DNA of 25,498 nucleotides from a virus, in the IMG/VR virus record IMGVR_UViG_3300048839_000285, positions 1 to 25,498 of that record, one strand, 5' to 3'. Under the pieces are notes generated by a model, which was not told where the DNA came from, made no database searches, and was given only the letters and a program-made list of their open reading frames with translations. Made by a program: the position numbers and the translations under genes. The stretch's first letter is position 1; each line of letters opens with the position of its first letter. This document shows, piece after piece, positions 1-13,518 of this stretch.

Positions 1-11
1 ACGCCCCATAT

Positions 12-31
12 GCACTATATACGTATAGTGC
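12..31. promoter_or_regulatory. 20-bp near-perfect palindrome, possible operator
   Basis: The arms GCACTATA and TATAGTGC are exact reverse complements around a 4-nt TACG centre. It lies in the non-coding left end, beyond the last leftward gene, and is much more AT-rich than the surrounding sequence. There is no T-run beside it, so an operator or another protein-binding site is more likely than an intrinsic terminator. Its function is unknown. Confidence 0.4.
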
Positions 32-105
32 GCCGTCATGTCAGAAAAAAGCGTCACTAAGGTCACGACAGGGCCTAAGTCTATACCCCGTGCGGGATTA
101 GCCTG

Positions 106-140
106 TGACCTATTGAAAAAAGAAAGGTCACAATAGGTCA
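106..140. promoter_or_regulatory. 10-bp inverted repeat in a cluster of GGTCA half sites
   Basis: TGACCTATTG (106-115) and CAATAGGTCA (131-140) are exact reverse complements separated by a 15-nt A-rich loop. The loop ends with a further GGTCA copy (126-130). Other copies of the half site lie at 61-66 (GGTCAC) and 52-57 (CGTCAC). GAAACGTCA is repeated directly at 152-160 and 172-180, 20 bp apart. Read leftward, the loop has a T-run, so a weak terminator for the leftward operon is possible. An array of binding sites for a phage regulator or replication protein is the alternative. Confidence 0.4.
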
Positions 141-177
141 TTATGGGGTCCGAAACGTCACTTTGCAGATTGAAACG

Positions 178-396
178 TCAATACCCTCCCCGCCACGGCT
201 CCGCCCATTCGATCCGGTAGCCGTGGCGGTCGGCGTAGCGTTGGAGCGGCCCCCGCTCGACAGCGGAGAAGAGGAGGAGGGGGTCGCCCCTGCCGTCGAG
301 TCGGGCCGCCGTGACCCGGTAGGTACGGGATTGGACGCCGCGCCGCTCCGCGATCGGGAGGTCGCTATGGGGCGCGAGGGACTTCGGGGCGATCAC
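178..396 (-). CDS. hypothetical protein, last gene of the leftward operon
   Basis: This is a 72-residue protein that I do not recognise. It starts at a GTG (396-394) only 6 nt after the stop of the preceding leftward reading frame, which fits a translationally coupled operon. It is basic and rich in Arg and Gly, with a central LLLFSAVERGPLQRYADRHG segment and a Trp-containing end (EWAEPWRGG). No signal peptide or membrane segment is seen. The TGA stop overlaps one copy of the direct repeat GAAACGTCA. The call rests on strand, tight spacing and matching codon use; a chance frame cannot be excluded. Confidence 0.5.
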   Translation of the reverse strand: MIAPKSLAPHSDLPIAERRGVQSRTYRVTAARLDGRGDPLLLFSAVERGPLQRYADRHGYRIEWAEPWRGGY

Positions 397-402
397 GGGC
401 GG

Positions 403-594
403 TTACTCCGGGTAGAGGGAAAGGGAGGAGCGGGACGCCTTGAAGTAGTCCAAGGCGAGGCAGGTCGCCGCTTCCTCGGTCGGGGCCGTAAAGGTGGCGC
501 GGCGACCGTGGAAGGTGGCGACGTAGCGTGTCACCACCTCCTGCCGCTACCCCTTGTGGTCGCGCATGGTCCGGGTATAGGTCGCGGGCGTCAT
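403..594 (-). pseudogene. small early gene interrupted by an in-frame amber codon
   Basis: The ATG at 594 overlaps the stop of the upstream gene (ATGA), exactly as at the neighbouring junction, so it is probably the true start. After 15 codons the frame meets TAG at 547-549. The same frame then stays open for 47 more codons to a TAA at 403-405. The segment after the stop looks like normal protein (VTRYVATFHGRRATF, then TEEAATCLALDYF) and faintly recalls the strand-strand-helix pattern of AP2-type DNA-binding domains. GTG codons at 537 and 534 could restart translation, but the AGGAGG before them leaves only 2 nt to the second GTG. It may be a nonsense pseudogene, a stop-restart pair or a readthrough gene. 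Confidence 0.5.
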
Positions 595-620
595 CCCTCG
601 CGCCCCCCGGTCAAGGTGGC
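591..620 (-). repeat. junction repeat, type A, copy 1
   Basis: This 30-nt block matches the block at 800-829 at 28 of 30 positions. It encodes the end of one protein (ATLTGGREG), carries the G-rich ribosome-binding region and contains the ATGA stop/start overlap with the next gene. Confidence 0.8.
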
Positions 621-803
621 CCGGCGGTCTGGGATATGATACCCCCCGTCGCGCACGGTCATGCCTTTTGTGCAGGGCCAAGTCAGGGCACCGTCTGGCC
701 AGCGGACCCCGACGGCCTCGCCCCCACATTCCGGTAGTTGGCAGGGGCGGTACCCGACGATGCGCCCGGTTTCGCCAGTGGCGGATACTACGGTGGTAAT
801 CAT
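591..803 (-). CDS. hypothetical small protein with three Cys residues
   Basis: This is a 70-residue protein that I do not recognise. The start at 803 is chosen because its ATG overlaps the TGA of the upstream gene (ATGA), and because the region before it repeats the start region of the next gene. The middle has Cys21, Cys26 and Cys44 around a GVRWPDG turn, which could bind a metal as an incomplete zinc ribbon. The C-terminus ATLTGGREG is almost identical to the end of the upstream protein (ATLTGGRDG). That identity probably reflects a shared junction sequence at the DNA level rather than shared function. It is a cytoplasmic accessory protein of unknown role. Confidence 0.65.
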   Translation of the reverse strand: MITTVVSATGETGRIVGYRPCQLPECGGEAVGVRWPDGALTWPCTKGMTVRDGGYHIPDRRATLTGGREG

Positions 804-829
804 CCGTCGCGCCCCCCGGTCAGGGTGGC
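800..829 (-). repeat. junction repeat, type A, copy 2
   Basis: It matches the block at 591-620 at 28 of 30 positions and has the same architecture: the final codons of one gene (ATLTGGRDG), a run of Gs as ribosome-binding region, and an ATGA overlap. Confidence 0.8.
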
Positions 830-1045
830 ATAGCGGCGGGAGAGCAGCGTCGCCACGTCGGCGTAGAACGTGAACGTTTCCGGGCTGGCGCCGGCAGTCC
901 AATCGGTCGCCCGTTCGAGGGCTTTCAGGTAGTCATCTTCGTAGAGCCGCAGGAGGGTCAGGGCGACCACGTGGACGCTGTTGCGGTGCTGGGTGGTCGC
1001 CTTGCGGCGCTCGTCGCCGACCCGGACGCATTCGATAGACGGCAT
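800..1045 (-). CDS. hypothetical small early protein
   Basis: This is an 81-residue protein of unknown family. The start at 1045 (reading MPSIECVRVGD) is preferred over one 39 nt further upstream because a clear AGGAGT lies 7 nt before it. The protein is predicted to be largely helical, with the stretch VHVVALTLLRLYEDDYLKAL and a second helix near FTFYADVATLLSRRY. No catalytic motif or membrane segment is seen. It overlaps the next leftward gene by ATGA. The 87-nt gap to its upstream neighbour is the second-largest in this operon. Confidence 0.65.
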   Translation of the reverse strand: MPSIECVRVGDERRKATTQHRNSVHVVALTLLRLYEDDYLKALERATDWTAGASPETFTFYADVATLLSRRYATLTGGRDG

Positions 1046-1091
1046 GATTAACACTCCTGCTAGGGTGAAAAGGGGTACTGCCATGCCCCGC

Positions 1092-1108
1092 GCCGGACTT
1101 GCACCGGC
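1092..1108 (-). other. hairpin resembling a tRNA T-arm, in an intergenic gap
   Basis: Read leftward, the stem GCCGG/CCGGC encloses a 7-nt loop TGCAAGT, the size and partial sequence of a tRNA T-arm. No cloverleaf could be built around it. It lies between two leftward genes (1046-1132) and may be a processing or attenuation hairpin. Confidence 0.3.
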
Positions 1109-1132
1109 CCGCTAGTCGGGGGGTTGGGCGGG

Positions 1133-1810
1133 TTAGTCGTGTCGTTCCGTGTAGTCTCCCGCGTCATACAGGGCACGGGCGCGGGCGGGCAATTCGTCGG
1201 CCAAGGTGTCGAGGCCATAGAAACCCCCGCACGAATCGACAACCTCGCCCCCTTGCTCGAACGTGTAGCCGTAAATGTCTCCCCGGTACCATTGGGCGAG
1301 GGTTTCGATTTCCCCCGCCAGTACCCCCCGCGCCAGTTCCCGGTGCTCCGGCGTATCGGTGCCATACTCCCGCACCACGTCGGCCACGGTGCAATAGATG
1401 GCGCCAACCTGCCCGGAATCCCACGGGCAGCCATAGGCGCCCGTCGAAAGCGCCACCCCGCCGTGGACGTAGGCAAAAACGGGAAGCATGACGGCGATTT
1501 CGTCCGGGTCAAGGTCGGCGGGGTCGTCGGCGCCGTCGTCACCCATGACGTAGCGGTTTCCGGCAGGGACGTAGAACGTGCCGAATACGTCCCAATCGGT
1601 CCGGGGACGGGGCGGGTCATCATCGCGCCAGATCGTCAACTTGTCGGCAGGGACGATAACGGCGAGGCATCGGTCGCACGTCACCCCGTCCGGGCCGCTT
1701 TCGTCGTGGTCATACACGGCAGCGGCGTCAAGGGCGCGGGGATAGACGCACCGAGGGCAAAGGATGTCCCCGTCAAGGGCGAAAGCGATGGGCGGGCGGG
1801 TCGTGGTCAT
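1133..1810 (-). CDS. conserved phage protein with N-terminal zinc ribbon
   Basis: This 225-residue protein resembles a widespread phage family of unknown function whose hallmark is a segment like VFAYVHGGVALS followed by PWDSGQVGAIYCT. Both are visible here at mid-length, as are a following REYG motif and an ETLAQWYRGDIYGYT segment near the C-terminus. The N-terminus has CPRC (Cys18, Cys21) and CDRC (Cys45, Cys48), a plausible four-Cys zinc ribbon. The ATG at 1810 lies 3 nt after the stop of the upstream gene, behind an AGGCTTGAG ribosome-binding region encoded in that gene's last codons. The protein is acidic and probably cytoplasmic. Its role is unknown; family members are typically accessory genes in early or middle regions. 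Confidence 0.8.
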   Translation of the reverse strand: MTTTRPPIAFALDGDILCPRCVYPRALDAAAVYDHDESGPDGVTCDRCLAVIVPADKLTIWRDDDPPRPRTDWDVFGTFYVPAGNRYVMGDDGADDPADLDPDEIAVMLPVFAYVHGGVALSTGAYGCPWDSGQVGAIYCTVADVVREYGTDTPEHRELARGVLAGEIETLAQWYRGDIYGYTFEQGGEVVDSCGGFYGLDTLADELPARARALYDAGDYTERHD

Positions 1811-1822
1811 GGCTCAAGCCTC
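1805..1822 (-). repeat. junction repeat, type B, copy 1
   Basis: The 18 nt are identical to 2117-2134. Read leftward they are GAGGCTTGAGCCATGACC: the last codons and TGA of one gene, the ribosome-binding region, and the ATG of the next. Confidence 0.8.
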
Positions 1823-2122
1823 GCGATTACAGAACCCGCACCCGCGGCAGGCGGCACCGGGGCAGGGGTTGGACGGGTGATTGTATCGACGATCCACGGT
1901 GAAACGATGTTCCCCCGTATTGTCGTCCCACATCACGAACCCCGCCCACCGTCGCCCGTCAAGGTAAGCTACCGCCGGGATAGTCCATGCGGTATCGGGC
2001 ACCCCTAGGCGGACGCGACCGATATGGCCGGAAGGGAAGCGGACCCTCCCCTTTCGGGGAGAGCGCCAGAGCGGGACGTTGTAGGCCAATTCTTCGCGAT
2101 CGATGGACGTAGGGGGGGTCAT
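1814..2122 (-). CDS. hypothetical protein with C-terminal Cys cluster
   Basis: This is a 102-residue protein without a recognised family. The start at 2122 follows a GGAGGCTTGAG ribosome-binding sequence. The body is beta-rich (GRVRFPSGHIGRVRLG, then AVAYLDGRRWAGFVMWDD). The last 16 residues hold four cysteines (Cys87, 92, 95 and 98) in a CxxxxCxxCxxC pattern, a likely zinc knuckle. It is followed after 3 nt by another gene encoding a putative zinc ribbon, so metal-binding small proteins are clustered here. A nucleic-acid-binding or host-interaction role is possible but not shown. Confidence 0.7.
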   Translation of the reverse strand: MTPPTSIDREELAYNVPLWRSPRKGRVRFPSGHIGRVRLGVPDTAWTIPAVAYLDGRRWAGFVMWDDNTGEHRFTVDRRYNHPSNPCPGAACRGCGFCNREA

Positions 2123-2134
2123 GGCTCAAGCCTC
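2117..2134 (-). repeat. junction repeat, type B, copy 2
   Basis: It is identical over 18 nt to 1805-1822 and has the same stop, ribosome-binding region and start arrangement. Looser relatives (TCAAGCGAGG, TCAAACGAGG) precede the genes starting at 2413 and 2645. Confidence 0.8.
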
Positions 2135-2413
2135 CGAGGCGTAGAGAAGGGTGAACGACGCGGGGACGATCGTCAGGGCGGCGCACGTTTCGCCGTGGTC
2201 CTTGCACCACTGGCGAGCGAAGGTGGCGAGGGTGACGGGGACGAAACCGTCCGGGCCGTCAGTCGTGGAGACGAGGACCGTCACCCCCGTTTCGTTGGGC
2301 CACGGCGCCGCGACGCCCAGCGAGCCAAGGATGGTCGCGGCGATCCCTGCCGCTTCAAGGGCGGGCGCGATGGCGTCGGGGGTCGTGTTGGCGATCGAAA
2401 GGATGTAGAGCAT
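2126..2413 (-). CDS. hypothetical small early protein
   Basis: This is a 95-residue protein, not recognised. The N-terminal half (ILSIANTTPDAIAPALEAAG, ATILGSLGVAAPW) is hydrophobic and alternates strand and helix. A central acidic turn (TTDGPDG) leads to an amphipathic segment with two cysteines (WCKDHGETC). The ATG at 2413 is preceded by GAGGCACC. The protein ends in ASEA with TGA, and those last codons form the ribosome-binding region of the next gene 3 nt on. No signal peptide is convincing. Function unknown. Confidence 0.65.
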   Translation of the reverse strand: MLYILSIANTTPDAIAPALEAAGIAATILGSLGVAAPWPNETGVTVLVSTTDGPDGFVPVTLATFARQWCKDHGETCAALTIVPASFTLLYASEA

Positions 2414-2437
2414 CGTCGGTGCCTCGCTTGAGTGGTG

Positions 2438-2458
2438 CCGGGGACGTTGTGTCCCCGG
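2438..2458 (-). other. 8-bp GC-rich hairpin in the leftward operon
   Basis: CCGGGGAC and GTCCCCGG pair perfectly around a 5-nt loop, between the genes that start at 2645 and 2413. Read leftward, the next bases are CACCACTCAAG with no T-run, so this is not a classical terminator. An RNA-processing or mRNA-stability hairpin, or an attenuator separating the first gene from the rest, is possible. Confidence 0.45.
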
Positions 2459-2471
2459 TCGGGTTGTTGGT

Positions 2472-2645
2472 TTAGCTGTTGAAGTGACGGTAATGATTCA
2501 GCCATTCCACCGCTTGCGCCGCCATCCGTTCGGACTCCGGTCCCGCCGGGCCAATCAGTACCCGCTCCCCCACCCCGTTGCCGATGGAGAGCCACGCCAG
2601 CGCCGGGAAGATCTTCCAAAGGGGACCGCGCGTCGTCTTAGCCAT
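2472..2645 (-). CDS. small basic early protein, first gene of the leftward operon
   Basis: This is a 57-residue protein, read MAKTTRGPLWKIFPALAW at the N-terminus and ending HYRHFNS. The ATG at 2645 is chosen over one at 2651 in the same frame because CGAGGG lies about 7 nt before it, but only 1 nt before the other. The first part is basic then hydrophobic (LWKIFPALAWLSIG), and the rest contains an amphipathic helix (ESERMAAQAVEWLNHY). It is promoter-proximal in the leftward unit. First-transcribed small phage proteins often act on the host, but nothing here shows a function. Confidence 0.6.
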   Translation of the reverse strand: MAKTTRGPLWKIFPALAWLSIGNGVGERVLIGPAGPESERMAAQAVEWLNHYRHFNS

Positions 2646-2736
2646 TGTCATGCCCTCGTTTGAGTGAGTGACCTACTGTGTTGCTTCCTTCCCCTACAAG
2701 CTAGCGCACCCCCTTCACCCCGCGCAAGCGTGGAAG

Positions 2737-2765
2737 ATTACAATATGATGACAAACGCATTACAG
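2737..2765 (-). promoter_or_regulatory. candidate leftward (early) promoter
   Basis: Read leftward, TGTAAT (2742-2737) matches the sigma-70 -10 box at five of six positions. CTGTAA lies 17 nt upstream (2765-2760), a poor -35 match. TGTAAT itself occurs twice, 22 bp apart (about two helical turns), which could also be a repeated activator site. Transcription would start near 2730 and give an untranslated leader of about 85 nt. Confidence 0.3.
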
Positions 2766-2820
2766 TTTAGCGGCGCTCCACTGCTCCACCGCCCCGCGCC
2801 CACCCAGCCGCGCGAATCTA

Positions 2821-2839
2821 GATGAGAACCATTCTCATC
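2821..2839. promoter_or_regulatory. 19-bp perfect dyad resembling a Fur box
   Basis: GATGAGAA and TTCTCATC are exact reverse complements around CCA. The central 15 bp (TGAGAAC-C-ATTCTCA) match the 7-1-7 Fur model TGATAAT-n-ATTATCA at 11 of 14 defined positions, and TGAGAAT-n-ATTCTCA at 13 of 14. It sits in the divergent region upstream of both operons. It could bind host Fur or a phage repressor of similar preference, or form an RNA hairpin. Resemblance alone cannot decide. Confidence 0.4.
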
Positions 2840-2913
2840 CGCTCCTCAGCTCCAGCAATTCCCATGCCATGACGTATAACGTGGGTTATGTTAAGCTGGC
2901 GCCCTGCAAGCCG

Positions 2914-2934
2914 CGTGCCATGTCAAGTGGCACG
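2914..2934 (+). other. 7-bp hairpin in the late leader region
   Basis: CGTGCCA and TGGCACG pair exactly around a 7-nt loop (TGTCAAG). It is followed by GGTCCTTGC rather than a T-run. It may shape the leader of the rightward transcript or be a protein-binding dyad. Confidence 0.4.
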
Positions 2935-3121
2935 GTCCTTGCATCGGAGGAGCAGAGCGTGTCAGTTCGACACAGCCCCCCCCCTCTTAGGGTCCCATAG
3001 GCCCGGCGTTTCCGTAGCAGGCCCCCAGAGCGCTCCCAGAACCTCCCCTCCAAAAAATCCCCACACCCGGACCCCTCGAAATAACTCGTTCCTAGCGCAC
3101 CCCCCTATGGTTCGCACGCAA

Positions 3122-3466
3122 ATGACAACGCCCGCTGACCCGACCGCCGAGTGGCCCCCGCTCCCCCGCACCGTGCAGGGGCTGGCCGGCCGTATCGCCG
3201 TGCGGCAACCGTGGCGCGTCGACCCCGAGATCCCCGACATCGTCGGCTACTGGCACAGCCGGGAGCGGCGGATCGACGTCGACCGGCGCCTCAGCCGGGG
3301 CGTGAAGTGGCAGGTCGGCTTCCACGAGTTCGTCCACAGCGCCATCGCGGACGCCGGCATCCCCTTGGACCATGAACTCGAGGAGCGGGTGTGCGACGCG
3401 GTCGGCTCGGCGCTCTGCGCCGCCCTCGAGCATTACCTCCTGCACCGACGCCCGGACCTCCAATGA
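3122..3466 (+). CDS. putative zinc metallopeptidase-like protein (HExxH)
   Basis: This is a 114-residue protein with the zinc-peptidase motif HEFVH at residues 68-72, preceded by the hydrophobic strand WQVGF. The downstream acidic segment LDHELEERVCDAVG can supply the third ligand (Glu87 or Glu88). The order fits small phage ImmA/IrrE-like or SprT-like peptidases: GYWHSRERRIDVDRRLS, then HExxH, then a Glu-containing helix. There is no signal peptide, so it would act in the cytoplasm. The start is uncertain: an in-frame ATG at 3107 would add five residues, and neither ATG has a clear ribosome-binding site. It is the first gene of the late operon and overlaps the next by ATGA. Its substrate is unknown. 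Confidence 0.65.
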   Translation: MTTPADPTAEWPPLPRTVQGLAGRIAVRQPWRVDPEIPDIVGYWHSRERRIDVDRRLSRGVKWQVGFHEFVHSAIADAGIPLDHELEERVCDAVGSALCAALEHYLLHRRPDLQ

Positions 3467-3780: not shown

Positions 3781-4388
3781 TGGCCGGCCGCAACCCGAAG
3801 AACAAGACAGGCGGCAAGCCGGCCAAGGACGGCATCCCGATCCTCGACGCCATCGGCGAGGAAGCCATCTTCGAGGACCGCGCCGGTGGCGCCAGCACGC
3901 GCGACCTCCAGAAGAAGTACGGCGTGACCGTGAATCAGTTCTACTTCTGGCTGGGCTACGCGCAGGGCTCCCGCATCCGGGCGGTCGACGCGGAGGGTCT
4001 CTCCCGCCGCGACCGCTGGGACGTCCTGACGGCCCATGCCGCCGAGTCCCGCGCCGCTCGAGCAACGGAGCGGCTGGAAGCCCTCGTGGAGAAGGAGGGC
4101 GAGCGCGAGGGCCGGATGAAGACGGACGTCTCCCGGGAGGAGATCGCGCTGGTCAAGGCGCTGGTCGAGCAGGACCGGTGGGAGGCGGGCAACATGGACC
4201 CCGGTACCTTCCGCCAGAATACCGCCCAGCCGGCCCCACAGGTCAACATCTCCGTCGGGGACCTCTATCTGGCCGCGGTGCGTGCTGAAGGGGGCGGAGC
4301 GGCCCTTGGCGGCGCGTGGAAGACCCCTGTGACCTTGGCTGACCCGGATACCGTGGACGCCGAGCTGGTTGACGAGGCGGACGCGTAG
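3780..4388 (+). CDS. terminase small subunit (putative)
   Basis: This 202-residue protein lies directly before the large terminase and overlaps it by one base (TAGTG). Residues about 37-60 (GASTRDLQKKYGVT and onward) form a helix-turn-helix of the type small terminases use to bind packaging-site DNA. The middle is a long charged helical region (RAARATERLEALVEKEGERE, then EEIALVKALVEQDRW), suited to oligomerisation. The acidic C-terminus (DPDTVDAELVDEADA) may contact the large subunit. The start at 3780 shares the final A of the upstream TAA. The identification rests on position, the HTH and size rather than on a conserved signature, so a different small DNA-binding protein is possible. Confidence 0.75.
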   Translation: MAGRNPKNKTGGKPAKDGIPILDAIGEEAIFEDRAGGASTRDLQKKYGVTVNQFYFWLGYAQGSRIRAVDAEGLSRRDRWDVLTAHAAESRAARATERLEALVEKEGEREGRMKTDVSREEIALVKALVEQDRWEAGNMDPGTFRQNTAQPAPQVNISVGDLYLAAVRAEGGGAALGGAWKTPVTLADPDTVDAELVDEADA

Positions 4389-5926
4389 TGGCCGGCCACA
4401 CCCTGCCGGGAGCCCTCAAGGCGGAAGCCCGGGCGATTGCGTCGGTCAAGGCCAGAGAAGAGCGCGTCAGCGCGACCCCCGCCGTCAACCCCTTCGTCGA
4501 GTTCATCCGGCGGTACAAGAATGATCCCGTGTCCTTCGTCCGCGAGGTCTTGGGCGCCGAGCCCGACGAGTGGCAGGCCGAGTTCCTGATGGCGGTCGCC
4601 CGGGGCGATCGACGCATCACGGTCAAGTCGGGGCACGGGGTGGGGAAGTCGACGGCAGCCTCGTGGGCCGCCCTCTGGTACTTCCTGACCCGGAATCCGG
4701 TCAAGGTGGTCATCACGGCGCCGACGAAGGCGCAGCTCTTCGACGCCCTCTTCAACGAACTCAAGTCGTGGGTGGGGCGCCTGCCGTCGGGCGTGCGGGA
4801 CCTGCTCGAGGTCAAGTCGGACCGCATCGAACTGATCGCCGCCCCGGCCGACGCCTTCATCTCAGCGCGGACGTCCCGGGCCGAGACCCCGGAAGCCCTC
4901 GCCGGCATCCACTCGGCCAACGTCATGCTGATCGGGGACGAGGCGTCAGGCATCCCGGAGACCGTCTTCGAGGCGGCGGCCGGCTCCATGTCCGGCTCGT
5001 CGGCCGTCACGCTGCTCCTCGGCAACCCCGTGCGGTCGTCTGGCTACTTCTTCGACACGCACACCAAGCTCCGAAGTCAGTGGACGTGCTTCAACGTCTC
5101 CTGCCTCACCTCGCCGCGCGTCGACTCCGAGTGGGTCAGCGAAATGGCGACCCGCTACGGCGAGGCGTCGAACGCCTACCGCGTGCGCGTGCTGGGCGAG
5201 TTCCCCTTGGCGGACGACGACACCGTCATCCCCTATGAGTGGGTCGCAGCGGCCGCAGGGCGCGACATCGTGGTCGACCCAATGACACCCGTGGTCTGGG
5301 GACTGGACGTGGCGCGCTTCGGCACGGACGCGTCGGCCCTCGTCAAGCGCAAGGGCCGGCACCTCCTCGAGCCGCCCAAGCTGTACCGCGGCTATGACCT
5401 GATGCAGCTCTGCGGCGTGATTGCGGCGGAGTTCGAGTCGGCGGCGGAGAAGTACAAGCCGGTCGAGATCATGGTCGACGTCATCGGCATCGGCGCCGGC
5501 GCCTTCGACCGCCTCCGCGAGATGGGGCTTCCCGTTCGTGGCATCAACGTGTCAGAGTCCCCCGCGTTGAAGGCGTCGTACATGAACCTGCGCGCCGAGC
5601 TGATGTACAAGCTGCGCGGCTGGTTCGAGGCTCGCGACGTCACCCTGCCCGATCGGTCGGACAGTTCCTTCTCCCCCGATCAGCAGGAAGCCATGCTCCG
5701 CCTCGTCGAAGACCTCACGTCGATCAAGTACAAGTTCGCCGAGGGGTCGGGCAAGATCCAGATTGAGTCGAAGAAGGACATGCGGAAGCGAACCGGCCGA
5801 AGCCCTGACGCGGGTGACGCCCTCATGCTGACGTTTGCGTCCAACGCGATTGCGGCCCTCAAGGGGCGGCGCGGCGGGACGTCATGGAACCAACCCATCC
5901 GGCGCAACATCCGGGGGATCGTGTAG
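4388..5926 (+). CDS. terL: terminase large subunit
   Basis: This 512-residue protein is the packaging motor ATPase and nuclease that pumps DNA into the prohead and cuts the concatemer. Walker A is SGHGVGKS at residues 81-88. Walker B with catalytic carboxylate is LIGDEAS (Asp184, Glu185). A coupling motif is plausible at LLLGNPVR. The RNase H-like nuclease domain supplies Asp307 (WGLDVARFGTD), Asp364 (IMVDVIGIGAG) and Asp474/Asp477 (SPDAGDALML), the usual metal-binding set. The length is typical. The GTG start at 4388 overlaps the TerS TAG. The first codons of TerS and TerL share the DNA TGGCCGGCC, which gives MAGR and MAGH N-termini. An intact, functional gene is expected. Confidence 0.96.
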   Translation: MAGHTLPGALKAEARAIASVKAREERVSATPAVNPFVEFIRRYKNDPVSFVREVLGAEPDEWQAEFLMAVARGDRRITVKSGHGVGKSTAASWAALWYFLTRNPVKVVITAPTKAQLFDALFNELKSWVGRLPSGVRDLLEVKSDRIELIAAPADAFISARTSRAETPEALAGIHSANVMLIGDEASGIPETVFEAAAGSMSGSSAVTLLLGNPVRSSGYFFDTHTKLRSQWTCFNVSCLTSPRVDSEWVSEMATRYGEASNAYRVRVLGEFPLADDDTVIPYEWVAAAAGRDIVVDPMTPVVWGLDVARFGTDASALVKRKGRHLLEPPKLYRGYDLMQLCGVIAAEFESAAEKYKPVEIMVDVIGIGAGAFDRLREMGLPVRGINVSESPALKASYMNLRAELMYKLRGWFEARDVTLPDRSDSSFSPDQQEAMLRLVEDLTSIKYKFAEGSGKIQIESKKDMRKRTGRSPDAGDALMLTFASNAIAALKGRRGGTSWNQPIRRNIRGIV

Positions 5927-6041: not shown

Positions 6042-8159
6042 ATGGCCGCTGCTGAATCGAAGGAGGACGTGAAGGCTCGCTTGGCCGAGATCGTCGAGGC
6101 CGAGCTGGCCGACGCCAAGGACTTCATCGACAACGACATCGGCGAGCTGCGCGCCAAGAACACCGAGTATTACAACGGCGAGCTGTTCGGCAACGAAGAG
6201 CCCGGCCGCTCGCAGGTCGTGAGCCGCGACGTCCGCGACACCGTGCAGGCGATGATGCCGTCGGTGATGCGCGTGATGCACGGCGGGGACCGCGTGGTCG
6301 AGTTCAAGCCGAAGCGCGCCGATGCGGTCAAGCAGGCCGAGCAGGCGACGGACTACATCAACGAGGTCGTGCTCGGGCAGGACAACGAGAGCTTCCTCGA
6401 GTTCCATTCCGGCTACAAGGACGCCCTCGTGCGGAAGGTGGGCATCTGGAAGTGGTATTGGGACAAGCGGGAGCGCCTCGAATCGACGCAGCACTCGGGC
6501 CTGAGCCGCGACGACCTGCTGGCGTTTGCGGACGATGAGACCATCGAGACGATCGAGACGGAGCGGACGTCCGCCGAGGGCATCATGCCCGAGGTCTTCG
6601 ACGTCACGGTCCACCGGCGCATCACCGACGGCCGCGCGCGCTTCAAGGCCGTGCCGGGCGAGCAGTTCCTGATCGACCGCCGGGCGACCTCGATCGACGA
6701 TGCCGCGCTGGTGGCCCACCGGGAGCTGGTGTCCATTTCCGACCTCGTGGCGATGGGCTACGACGAGGACGAGCTGGACGAGGTGGGTGGCGCGATCGAC
6801 TCCTCCAACGAGTTCGACGGCAACACCGAGTACAACGCGCGGATGCCGCTGGCCTCGGTCGGTGGCAACCGGAACGAGCGCGATCCGCTCCTCCGCAAGG
6901 TCCTCTACGTCGAAGCGTACGTCCGCGCCAAGGTGTCGCCGAAGAAGGGCGACCCGGCGCAGCTCGTCAAGGTGTGCGGCATCGGCGCGTCGCCCTTCAA
7001 GGTCCTGCATTGGGAGCCGGCCGACGACGGCGAGGCGCCCTTCGCGTCCATCTGCCCCGACCCGGAGCCGCACGCGTTCTTCGGGACGTGCCCGGCCGAT
7101 CAGGTCGTCGACCTCCAGCTCATCAAGTCCAACGTCCTCCGCGGCACCCTCGATTCCCTGACGCTGTCCCTGTTCCCCCGCACCCAGATTGTGGACGGGC
7201 AAGTGAACATGGACGACCTCCTGAACACGGAGCTGGGCGGCGTCATCCGGTCGGACACGCTCGAGTCGATGCGCGAGATCAAGGCGACCTTCGTGGGCGC
7301 CGATTCGCTGCCGATGCTCGAGTATCTGGACAAGATCCGCGAGGATCGCACCAAGCAGTCGCAGGCGTCGCAGGGATTGGATGCGGATGCGCTCCAGTCG
7401 TCGACCAAGGCGGCCGTCGCGGCCACCATTTCCGGCGCGCAGGCCAATATCGAGCTGACCTGCCGGATCTTTGCCGAAACGGGCGTCAAGCGCCTCATGC
7501 GCGGGCTCCTCAAGCTCGTGCAGCGCCATCAGGACCGTCCGCGGACCGTGCGTTTGCGTGGCGAGTGGGTCGAGGTGGACCCGAAGGCGTGGGACGCGGA
7601 GATGGACGTGACGGTCAACGTCGCGCTGGGCTCGGGTGGCCCCGAAGAGAAGCTCGCGACGCTCGGGATGGTCAAGGAGACGCAGGAAGGCATCCTCCAG
7701 ATGCTCGGGCCGTCGAATCCGCTCGTCTCGCTGGCCAATTACCGCAACACCTTGGCGGAAATGCTCAAGCTGACCGGCTACAAGGACGCCGATCGCTTCT
7801 TCAAGCAGGTCTCGGAAGAGGACGGGGCCAATCCGGCCGCGCCCCCGACTGACGACCCCGCGCAGAAGCTCGCCGACGCCCAGAAGGCGGAGACCGAGGC
7901 CAAGATGCAGGTGGAAATGGCGAAACTCGCCTTGGAGCGGGAGAAGATGGAGCGGGAAGACGCGCGCAAGTTGTACGAAATCAACCTCGACGCGCAGGTT
8001 CGGATCGCGATTGCCGAGGCGCAGACGAAGGTCGACATCAACAACGCCGCGGTCAACGCCGAAGTGGAAGCGATGCGGGTGCAGCATGATACCGCGGCGC
8101 GTGCCCACGAGGCCGAGACGGCGGCCAAGGCACAGGCCACGACCGGAGCGGCCGAATGA
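6042..8159 (+). CDS. portal protein
   Basis: This 705-residue protein has the size and layout of podovirus portals, the dodecameric ring at the head vertex through which DNA enters and leaves. The N-terminus carries the typical helix (RAKNTEYYNGELFGNEE) followed by GRSQVVSRDVRDTVQAMMPSV and an EQATDYINEVVL segment. The core runs to about residue 570. The last 100 residues are a long charged coiled coil (KLADAQKAETEAKMQVEMAK and onward), the probable barrel or internal extension. The ATG at 6042 has no strong ribosome-binding site, only GTGAG about 8 nt upstream, so its expression may depend on the structured leader or on coupling. It overlaps the next gene by ATGA. The call is supported by its position right after terL. 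Confidence 0.92.
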   Translation: MAAAESKEDVKARLAEIVEAELADAKDFIDNDIGELRAKNTEYYNGELFGNEEPGRSQVVSRDVRDTVQAMMPSVMRVMHGGDRVVEFKPKRADAVKQAEQATDYINEVVLGQDNESFLEFHSGYKDALVRKVGIWKWYWDKRERLESTQHSGLSRDDLLAFADDETIETIETERTSAEGIMPEVFDVTVHRRITDGRARFKAVPGEQFLIDRRATSIDDAALVAHRELVSISDLVAMGYDEDELDEVGGAIDSSNEFDGNTEYNARMPLASVGGNRNERDPLLRKVLYVEAYVRAKVSPKKGDPAQLVKVCGIGASPFKVLHWEPADDGEAPFASICPDPEPHAFFGTCPADQVVDLQLIKSNVLRGTLDSLTLSLFPRTQIVDGQVNMDDLLNTELGGVIRSDTLESMREIKATFVGADSLPMLEYLDKIREDRTKQSQASQGLDADALQSSTKAAVAATISGAQANIELTCRIFAETGVKRLMRGLLKLVQRHQDRPRTVRLRGEWVEVDPKAWDAEMDVTVNVALGSGGPEEKLATLGMVKETQEGILQMLGPSNPLVSLANYRNTLAEMLKLTGYKDADRFFKQVSEEDGANPAAPPTDDPAQKLADAQKAETEAKMQVEMAKLALEREKMEREDARKLYEINLDAQVRIAIAEAQTKVDINNAAVNAEVEAMRVQHDTAARAHEAETAAKAQATTGAAE

Positions 8160-10864: not shown

Positions 10865-11494
10865 ATGGCGCTTGGCACGTACGCAGAACTCCAGACGTCC
10901 CTCGCCTCGTGGCTCAACCGCGACGACTTGGACGCGTACCTTCCCGACTGGATCGCTCTCGTGGAGGCCGACATCGAGCGGGACCTCCGGGTGCGCGCCA
11001 TGCTGGTGCGCGCGATCACGGTGCCGGAGGCGGATGAGCCGCGGGAGAACTTGCCCGGCGACTTCCTCCAGCTCAAGGCGATCCAGTTCAACTCGAACCC
11101 GATCCGCGTGCCCGACTACTGCACCCCCGCGTTCATGCGGGTGCGCCGCGGCATGACGGCGTCGCAGACGGGCGTCCCCGCGTTCTACACGATCGAGGCC
11201 GGCGAGCTGCTGTTCGACGTGACGCCGTCCGACGTCGAACTCGAGATCCTCTACTACCAGAAGATCCCGCGGCTCTCGGACACCAACACGACCAACTGGC
11301 TCCTGACCGCCTACCCGGACATCTACTTGTATGGTGCCCTGATTCACTCCGCGCCCTTCCTCAAGGACGACGAGCGGATCGCGGTGTGGGACGGTATGTT
11401 TCAGCGCGCCAAGGCGGCGCTCAAGAAGCAGGATAGCCGGGGCGAGGCCAACGCGGCGCCCGTGGCCATCCGCTCGCGCCGGGGGTCCGTCTAA
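10865..11494 (+). CDS. adaptor (head-tail connector) protein
   Basis: This 209-residue protein resembles the adaptor that binds below the portal in podoviruses (P22 gp4 and SU10 types). Features are an N-terminal helical part (YAELQTSLASWLNRDDLDAY, then WIALVEADIERDLRVRAML) and a beta-rich middle (ETLP-like ENLPGDFLQLKAIQFN). A C-terminal helical segment typical of the family follows (YLYGALIHSAPFLKDDERIA, then WDGMFQRAKAALKKQD). It would seal the portal and provide the tail attachment ring. It follows the small unknown gene with no spacing and has no strong ribosome-binding site, so it is probably coupled. Confidence 0.85.
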   Translation: MALGTYAELQTSLASWLNRDDLDAYLPDWIALVEADIERDLRVRAMLVRAITVPEADEPRENLPGDFLQLKAIQFNSNPIRVPDYCTPAFMRVRRGMTASQTGVPAFYTIEAGELLFDVTPSDVELEILYYQKIPRLSDTNTTNWLLTAYPDIYLYGALIHSAPFLKDDERIAVWDGMFQRAKAALKKQDSRGEANAAPVAIRSRRGSV

Positions 11495-13518
11495 TGGCCA
11501 CGACGACGTGGATCAGCCAGACGCCGGGCGCGGTCGTCACCGAATCGCTGCTGACGCAGGTCCAGAACGAAGCGGCCGCGGCCGAACTGTCGGCGGTTGC
11601 GTCGGCTGCTTCCGCGTCCGCGTCCGATGTCTCGGCCGATGCGGCGGCGGCCAGTGCGATTGCCGCCGCGGCCTCCGCCTCTGCTGCATCCAACTCGGCG
11701 GCCAACGCGCTCACGTACGCCAATCAGGCCCTGACGGCGGCCGGGTCCTTGACCCCTATTCCGACGGGGGGGACGACCGGGCAGTCGCTGGTCAAGAACT
11801 CGGCGACGAACTACGACTACGCGTGGGCCACAGTGTCCGGCGGCGGGGGATCGCTCGCGTTTCAGGACGAGGGCAGCCTCGTGCTCGCTTCGCCGTCGAA
11901 CGTCAACTTCGTCGGATCGGGCGTCACCGTGACCGACGTGGCGGGCGTGGCGACCGTGACGATCCCGGGGGCCTCGGGCGCCGTCTCGAGCGTCTTCGGC
12001 CGGACGGGCGCGGTCGTGGCCGCCACGAACGACTACACGTTCGCCCAGATCGGCTCGAAGCCGACCACGCTGGCCGGCTATGGGATCACCGACGCCGCGG
12101 CAGGTTCGGGAGGCGTAGCGACCTCAGCGACCGTCCTCGCGACCGCGCGCACCATCAATGGCGTGTCGTTCAACGGCTCGGCGAACATCACGGTTACGGC
12201 AGCGGCGGATACCCTCACGGGGTCCACCCTGCCGGCGCTCTCCGGTGTCAACCTGACGGCGCTCAACGCGTCGAATCTGGCGTCAGGGACGGTGGCGACC
12301 GCGCGCCTCGGCTCCGGGACGGCGAACAGCACGACGTTCCTCCGGGGCGACAATACATGGCAGGCGATCGGTGGCGGGGGTGATGCACTCACGTCGGGCA
12401 CGCTCGCGCAGTTCGCCGCGACGACCTCGGCGCAGTTGGCGGGCGTCATCTCGGATGAGACGGGGACGGGCGCGCTCGTCTTCGCGACGAGCCCGACCCT
12501 CGTCACCCCCGTGCTGGGTACGCCCGCCTCGGGCAACCTGTCAAACTGCACCGCGATCAACGCCTCCCAGCTCGCAACGGGCACCGTGCCCGCGGCGCGT
12601 CTCGGCTCCGGGACGGCGAATAGTACGACCTTTCTCCGGGGCGACAATACGTGGCAGACGATTGGCGGAGGCGGCGATGCGCTGACCTCCGGCAACCTGT
12701 CGCAGTTCGCGGCGACGACCTCCGCGCAGCTCGCGGGCGTCATCAGCGACGAGACGGGAACCGGCGCGCTGGTCTTTGCCACGTCGCCGACGCTCGTTAC
12801 CCCCGTGCTCGGCACGCCCGCCTCGGGCAACCTGTCGAACTGTACGGCGCTGAACGCGACGCAGCTCACGTCGGGCACGGTGCCTGACGCGCGCTTCCCG
12901 GCCACCCTGCCGGCGGCATCTGGCGTCAACCTGACGGCCCTGAACGCGACGAACATCTCGAGCGGGACGCTCAATGCAGCGCGGCTCCCCGCCACAGCGG
13001 CCCTGACCTCAGGCAACCTGAGCCAGTTCGCGGCCACCACCTCAGCACAACTGCGGGGGGTCCTGTCCGACGAAACGGGGACGGGAGTCGCGGTCTTCGG
13101 CACCAACCCGACGCTGACGGGCGTGACGCTCGCGGGCGCGGTGGTCGGCGCCGCGCAGGAAGTCCGCGACGTCGTGCATCGCGACACGGCGTACTACCGC
13201 TCGGCCCCGACTATCTCGGCCGGCGCGATCACGTTTGACTACACCGCGGGCCCGTTCTTCTCGGTGGCGCTCAACGCGGCGATCACCTCGATCACCCTGA
13301 GCAATCCCCCGGCGTCAGGTACGGTCGGCGTCATCACGATCCGCTTCACCGCGGACGGCACCGTGCGGGCCATTACGTGGCCGGCTTCGGTGCGGTGGGG
13401 CACCGCCGGGGCGCCGAGCGCGATGACCGGTACAAGCGGCAAGGTGGACTACGTGCAGTTGATTACGGTGGACGGCGGAACGACGTGGGACGCCTTCCTC
13501 AACGGCCAGAACTTCTAA
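11494..13518 (+). CDS. repeat-rich tail fibre protein
   Basis: This is a 674-residue protein. Residues about 25-80 are an Ala/Ser-rich coiled coil (SAVASAASASASDVSAD and so on) typical of trimeric fibres. A segment IPTGGTTGQSLVKNS follows, with a VSSVFGRTGAVVAATNDYTF module common in fibre shafts. Residues about 270-470 hold two near-identical 98-residue repeats (GTANSTTFLRGDNTWQ, QFAATTSAQLAGVISDETGT, SPTLVTPVLGTPASGNLSNC), with a third diverged partial copy after about residue 500. The C-terminal 100 residues end in a domain (ITWPASVRW, VDGGTTWDAFLNGQNF) shared with the gene at 15345. It is likely a receptor-binding fibre. The start overlaps the adaptor TAA. Confidence 0.88.
   Translation: MATTTWISQTPGAVVTESLLTQVQNEAAAAELSAVASAASASASDVSADAAAASAIAAAASASAASNSAANALTYANQALTAAGSLTPIPTGGTTGQSLVKNSATNYDYAWATVSGGGGSLAFQDEGSLVLASPSNVNFVGSGVTVTDVAGVATVTIPGASGAVSSVFGRTGAVVAATNDYTFAQIGSKPTTLAGYGITDAAAGSGGVATSATVLATARTINGVSFNGSANITVTAAADTLTGSTLPALSGVNLTALNASNLASGTVATARLGSGTANSTTFLRGDNTWQAIGGGGDALTSGTLAQFAATTSAQLAGVISDETGTGALVFATSPTLVTPVLGTPASGNLSNCTAINASQLATGTVPAARLGSGTANSTTFLRGDNTWQTIGGGGDALTSGNLSQFAATTSAQLAGVISDETGTGALVFATSPTLVTPVLGTPASGNLSNCTALNATQLTSGTVPDARFPATLPAASGVNLTALNATNISSGTLNAARLPATAALTSGNLSQFAATTSAQLRGVLSDETGTGVAVFGTNPTLTGVTLAGAVVGAAQEVRDVVHRDTAYYRSAPTISAGAITFDYTAGPFFSVALNAAITSITLSNPPASGTVGVITIRFTADGTVRAITWPASVRWGTAGAPSAMTGTSGKVDYVQLITVDGGTTWDAFLNGQNF
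12307..12600 (+). repeat. 294-bp tandem repeat in the fibre gene, copy 1
   Basis: It begins CTCGGCTCCGGGACGGCGAA and is followed head to tail by a second copy starting with the same bases at 12601. The unit is 98 codons, so copy number changes would keep the frame. Confidence 0.8.
12601..12893 (+). repeat. 294-bp tandem repeat in the fibre gene, copy 2
   Basis: It is nearly identical to copy 1 at the protein level, with mostly synonymous DNA changes. Its last codons (GTVPDAR) diverge into a different module. A partial third copy lies at about 13001-13128 (LTSGNLSQFAATTSAQLRGV). Confidence 0.8.

Follow-up and report, generated by a model that had tools for sequence, protein, structure and literature searches.

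Near-identical start-site sequences enclosing single small genes in a leftward phage operon

How a phage gains a single gene without breaking an operon whose genes overlap and are co-translated is an open question. It is raised by a locus in the 25,498-base IMG/VR virus contig IMGVR_UViG_3300048839_000285, where two unrelated sequences each recur at the junctions between small genes. The whole contig was analysed and is called the window below; the record consists of this contig only, not of a whole genome. Rightward from position 3122, the window carries a terminase gene (4388-5926), a portal gene (6042-8159) and virion genes, and the relatives of the terminase include Sinorhizobium phage phiM5 (52%) and Manatee Spring phages (up to 59%). 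Leftward from about 2650 runs a minus-strand operon of small genes, g1 to g9, listed here with reference to the two recurring junctions, type A and type B.

2472-2645, minus strand: g1, first listed gene of the operon
2126-2413, minus strand: g2, 95 aa, upstream of the type B cassette, without a family match
1814-2122, minus strand: g3, 102 aa, between the two type B copies, poorest codon log-odds among the credible genes
1133-1810, minus strand: g4, 225 aa, downstream of the type B cassette, phrog_6186 (unknown function)
800-1045, minus strand: g5, 81 aa, last 11 residues matching those of g6
591-803, minus strand: g6, 70 aa, between the two type A copies, second-poorest codon log-odds among the credible genes
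547-594, minus strand: g7, a 15-codon ORF after the second type A copy
403-534, minus strand: g8, 43 aa, phrog_19202, holding a partial in-phase type A-like stretch at 486-504
178-396, minus strand: g9, an operon gene

The phrog_6186 family, which matches the C-terminal half of g4, is found in phages of Rhodobacterales, sphingomonads and others, and the match may point to an alphaproteobacterial host. Outside the operon, tandem repeats of about 294 nt occupy positions 12256-13115 inside a putative tail-fibre-like gene of 674 aa (11494-13518).

Type A has the consensus GCCACC[T/C]TGACCGGGGGGCGCGA[G/C]GGATGA, with 28 of 30 positions identical between its two copies and a weaker similarity that continues to about 37 nt. 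Type B, GAGGCTTGAGCCATGACC, is identical at all 18 positions, 8 nt of which precede the end of the stop codon; its upstream frames read SEA-stop and REA-stop, followed by GCC-ATG-ACC. The copies, together with those of a weak third pair, are located as follows.

800-829, minus strand: type A copy 1, comprising the last codons of g5 (ATLTGGRDG-stop), a G-rich ribosome-binding stretch and an ATGA overlap with the start of g6
591-620, minus strand: type A copy 2, comprising the last codons of g6 (ATLTGGREG-stop) and an ATGA overlap with the start of the 15-codon ORF
2117-2134, minus strand: type B copy 1, comprising the end of g2 (EA-stop), the SD GGAGG and the start of g3 (ATGACC)
1805-1822, minus strand: type B copy 2, comprising the end of g3 (EA-stop), the SD GAGG and the start of g4 (ATGACC)
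2421-2434, minus strand: weak third pair, copy before g2, CACTCAAGCGAGGC
2653-2666, minus strand: weak third pair, copy before g1, CACTCAAACGAGGG

The positions, identities and reading frames of both pairs had been given in a preliminary description of this DNA, and all of them were confirmed at a level far above chance. Type A gave 2 matches in the window versus 0 in 100 shuffles, type B gave 2 versus a shuffle mean of 0.01, and neither had a third copy even when 3 mismatches were allowed. The repeats are real and not a product of chance. Both are good translation-coupling junctions; type B, moreover, is short and consists mostly of functional signals, which counts against a recombination reading. 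Within g8, on the minus strand at 486-504, lies a partial type A-like stretch, CGCCGCGCCACCTTTACGG, that agrees with copy 2 at 16 of 19 positions in the same codon phase (RRATFT versus RRATLT), a match expected by chance on one strand of the window at about 0.02.

The geometry of the copies is simple. The type A copies stand on consecutive starts and enclose g6 only, and the type B copies likewise enclose only g3. Among the 36 start-site pairs in the operon, those that stand out are g3/g4 (a run of 18), g6/g7 (28/30) and, weakly, g1/g2, and all of them are consecutive. The last is a marginal case (19/30), in which CACTCAA[A/G]CGAGG stands before g1 and before g2 in the same register.

Homology between the flanking proteins, together with an absence of the motifs elsewhere in the genome, would, according to the preliminary description, reduce the case to simple gene duplication. 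The only part common to g5 and g6 is their last 11 residues (BLASTP E=0.002). With these removed, their similarity was no higher than that of shuffled sequences (p=0.79), and g2 and g3 without their common tail were also at the shuffle level (p=0.73). Since both pairs of proteins are dissimilar outside the tail, plain tandem duplication is not supported. Codon usage was then ranked for genes of which the two enclosed ones are both short and had already been singled out by the repeats; with that reservation, g3 (-0.10) and g6 (-0.08) were the sole genes with negative codon log-odds, every other tabulated gene scoring at least +0.13. Their GC3 (0.72 and 0.74, respectively) was the lowest among the tabulated genes, as were, with two doubtful gap-filling ORFs disregarded, their synonymous-codon scores. 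Such a poor codon fit suits a recent foreign origin of g3 and g6. That bracketed genes generally have a poor codon fit was rejected, given the mixed ranks seen in the other genomes surveyed. Both proteins contain cysteine, and g3 ends in CPGAACRGCGFC, possibly a metal-binding knuckle.

A comparable arrangement is known from the cluster I mycobacteriophage Island3. Its gp68 is an orphan that matches gp67 in its 18 C-terminal residues, and the gene is absent from Brujita (Pope et al. 2011, PMC3029335), which carries one recombinant copy of the 60 bp shared in Island3 (PMC3029335). Recombination between repeats of about 50 bp, leading to deletion or insertion, was proposed for the two phages and likened to boundary sequences (PMC3029335). 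When the ends of Island3 gp67 and gp68 were re-read, they proved identical at 29 of 30 positions, within a block of about 46 nt that ends at ATGA. In Island3 as in the window, a bracketed small orphan ends, in nucleotide and protein alike, with a repeat of the upstream gene's 3' end, and stop and start overlap. The 3' ends of g6 and g3 repeat those of g5 and g2, and the enclosed genes are unlike their neighbours. The repeat in Island3 is longer, about 46-60 bp versus 18-30 nt here, and a gene-free relative is known for Island3, whereas none was found for this operon. On this comparison, the junction repeats around g3 and g6 appear best read as a further case of the already known Island3/Brujita kind.

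Other systems resemble the locus in part. Boundary sequences at mosaic junctions, as summarized in PMC3029335 from its refs 21 and 22, are also short conserved gene-border sequences where homologous recombination can alter gene content; in that summary they are defined by comparing related phages at module borders, whereas here two copies lie inside one genome. The mosaic borders of phages are mostly without homology (PMC3029335). The PeSL cassettes of T4-type phages, made up of promoter and stem-loop elements according to the account in PMC4503421 (citing Arbiol 2010 and Comeau 2014), are likewise repeated intergenic elements proposed to mediate the shuffling of small early genes. Unlike the elements outlined in that account, the present junctions have no promoter-like match or unusual hairpin.

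Relatives of the operon itself were sought widely. Neither g3 nor g6 had a detectable relative, and g6 gave no significant family match. No sequence carrying the operon was returned by PHROGs, Pfam, tblastn and blastn against INPHARED, blastn against PLSDB, or IMG/VR scans with g4 and g5, and scans with the terminase and portal yielded many distant relatives, in none of which tblastn detected the operon. An empty site for g3 or g6 was accordingly not seen in IMG/VR, INPHARED or PLSDB, where no operon-bearing relative was present. One contig (L002) is 100% identical but begins inside the terminase gene. A candidate relative of g5 (L344) was rejected, the match being of 22 residues inside a tail protein.

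Empty and filled states were observed at another site, in distant relatives. This site, built from contig L123 (4033-4780), consists of two conserved small genes, U and D, with or without a gene X between them, and was traced in 78 contigs with both neighbours, including the homologous sites in L262-L341. It is empty in 25 contigs, U and D overlapping directly by ATGA, and holds one or more genes in 37, with at least two unrelated insert families represented. The insert of the KYRKKP family (L123/L262, L156/L298 and L291) is flanked on either side by a repeat that matches each genome's own junction variant (GTGGT, GTGGC or GCGGC), and the right junction in L156, GAGGAGGTGGCGACATGA, is the empty-site junction of L284, L286 and L276. 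Judged by their sequences, the KYRKKP-insert junctions are what a crossover inside a short shared stretch would be expected to leave behind. The other common insert, ending in ALADAMLKARQA, accounts for most of the U-D insertions and sits exactly at the same ATGA and lacks such a repeat; gene gain may thus leave repeats but does not depend on them. Elsewhere, a gene of 97-98 aa (AWQRKEGKSP...) varies in position among phages: it can be flanked by two conserved genes, be missing from that place or stand two genes further on (L106, L108, L119 and L107 versus L127, L179 and L147); C-termini reading KAKK-stop are shared at junctions.

The placement of start-site repeats was surveyed in 209 contigs, in which start contexts of 4546 genes, called with a codon-based script rather than a published gene finder, were compared within each contig; pairs with 50% or more similarity in the 60 nt downstream were excluded. 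Identical runs of at least 14 nt occurred in 16 of 3759 adjacent pairs versus 14 of 36296 non-adjacent pairs (Fisher p 1.4e-9). Repeats were therefore about 11 times commoner at adjacent starts, in contigs that had been gathered as relatives of this phage or via the type B motif, not at random, and of which the related ones are not fully independent. Runs of at least 16 nt were found in 11 adjacent and 6 non-adjacent pairs (p 3.5e-8), and counting related contigs once, by hand, left about 13 adjacent versus 5 non-adjacent families. Most of the bracketed genes in the survey had no BLAST similarity to their neighbour.

The two pairs are probably, though by no means securely, explained by recombination at short start-site sequences through which single genes are gained or lost, g3 and g6 each having been inserted between pre-existing neighbours. 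Each pair would represent a start-site boundary sequence (gene end, ribosome-binding region and next start) that now flanks one small gene, g6 having been inserted between g5 and g7/g8 and g3 between g2 and g4. The crossover would have fallen in a short stretch common to the recipient junction and the 3' end of the incoming gene. Its product would read gene U, junction, inserted X, the same junction and gene D, with X carrying the C-terminal residues of U, and the same repeats would permit the precise removal of X. Because such a junction leaves both X and D immediately translatable, the shared block would end at the start codon and be kept. Insertion as the route, its direction and the recombinase are what we infer for this contig. 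The idea of the preliminary description that small genes are swapped by recombination while stop, ribosome-binding region and start are kept is supported through evidence that is all indirect: the bracketing, the enrichment at adjacent starts, the empty and filled sites in distant relatives, and Island3/Brujita.

Similar junctions could also be generated by convergence under translational constraint, with stop, SD and start packed within about 20 nt and the common C-terminal residues being what the SD encodes. A wider motif search, proposed in the preliminary description, bears on this reading: the 25.5-kb contig holds only the two copies of each motif, and the type B 18-mer was found in 15 other IMG/VR contigs, in all of which the upstream frame ends in EA-stop and the downstream ORF starts with MT. 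No IMG/VR match was found for a type A 24-mer, and 21 nt of type A occurred once in GTDB genomes, in an operon of Erythrobacter sp. AP23 (L342 6571-7236). There the gene ends in ITGGREG-stop, with the in-frame stop overlapping the start of the next gene in ATGA; by our own reading of the sequence, its product is probably a cytochrome b561-like membrane protein. As both motifs always occur as in-frame stop and start, the shared C-terminal residues are partly what such a junction encodes. As a full account, convergence is nevertheless unlikely, since 15 contigs of 2.9 million are too rare for two chance copies in one operon, the identity of type A reaches beyond what ribosome binding needs, and chance convergence would not favour adjacent starts. 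Tandem gene duplication, followed by divergence of everything but a selected junction, is less probable again. It does occur: in L161 (3316-3883), a 28/30 junction repeat encloses a gene that arose as a copy of the adjacent one and has since diverged from it to 37% identity over 49 aa, so tandem duplication sometimes yields the same mark. In the window, by contrast, neither pair retains any similarity beyond the tail, and an identity of 28/30 would have had to survive while the rest was randomised.

Still lower in probability is the copying of one junction onto the next by gene conversion or template switching, with no gene gained or lost. Such local copying would also produce an enrichment at adjacent starts, but it leaves unexplained both the outlier codon usage of the enclosed genes and the empty and filled site elsewhere. 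Very improbable, finally, is a role of the repeats as sites to which a regulator binds, or as a start-associated element controlling translation of a common gene set. Their position at start sites and their conservation beyond the SD core agree with this, and they share with the SAS/ESAS of cluster K, to which the preliminary description had compared them, a link to starts, an SD-like core and a place before unrelated small non-structural genes. The comparison did not hold further. SAS is one 13-mer that occurs 11-19 times per genome, in some copies together with 17-bp inverted repeats (PMC3203893), whereas here two unrelated sequences have two copies each in 25.5 kb, a contig that is part of a genome in which further copies are possible; the SAS 13-mer, GGGATAGGAGCCC, gave 0 matches in the contig at up to 2 mismatches. 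Folding energies of the junction RNA equalled those of shuffles (z 0.14 to 0.69), no Rfam match was found at the junctions, and a search of positions 1-3200 for sigma-70-type promoters, the only type covered, gave no match. The regulator site suggested in the preliminary description is disfavoured by these results.

Altogether, a gene gained recently would be recognizable, from one genome by itself, by the junction repeats that enclose it; here the mark points to g3 and g6. That near-identical junctions preferentially enclose exactly one gene (about 11- to 18-fold relative to non-adjacent starts) may be a general footprint of single-gene acquisition at translation-coupled junctions, with Island3 as one instance of a widespread process, a possibility that we regard as tentative and on balance doubtful; if true, the footprint could be read from one genome with no relative needed. 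The enrichment at adjacent starts would be the more interesting result, if confirmed in a proper survey. Such repeats would provide candidate recently acquired accessory genes, together with a footprint for testing short-homology recombination.
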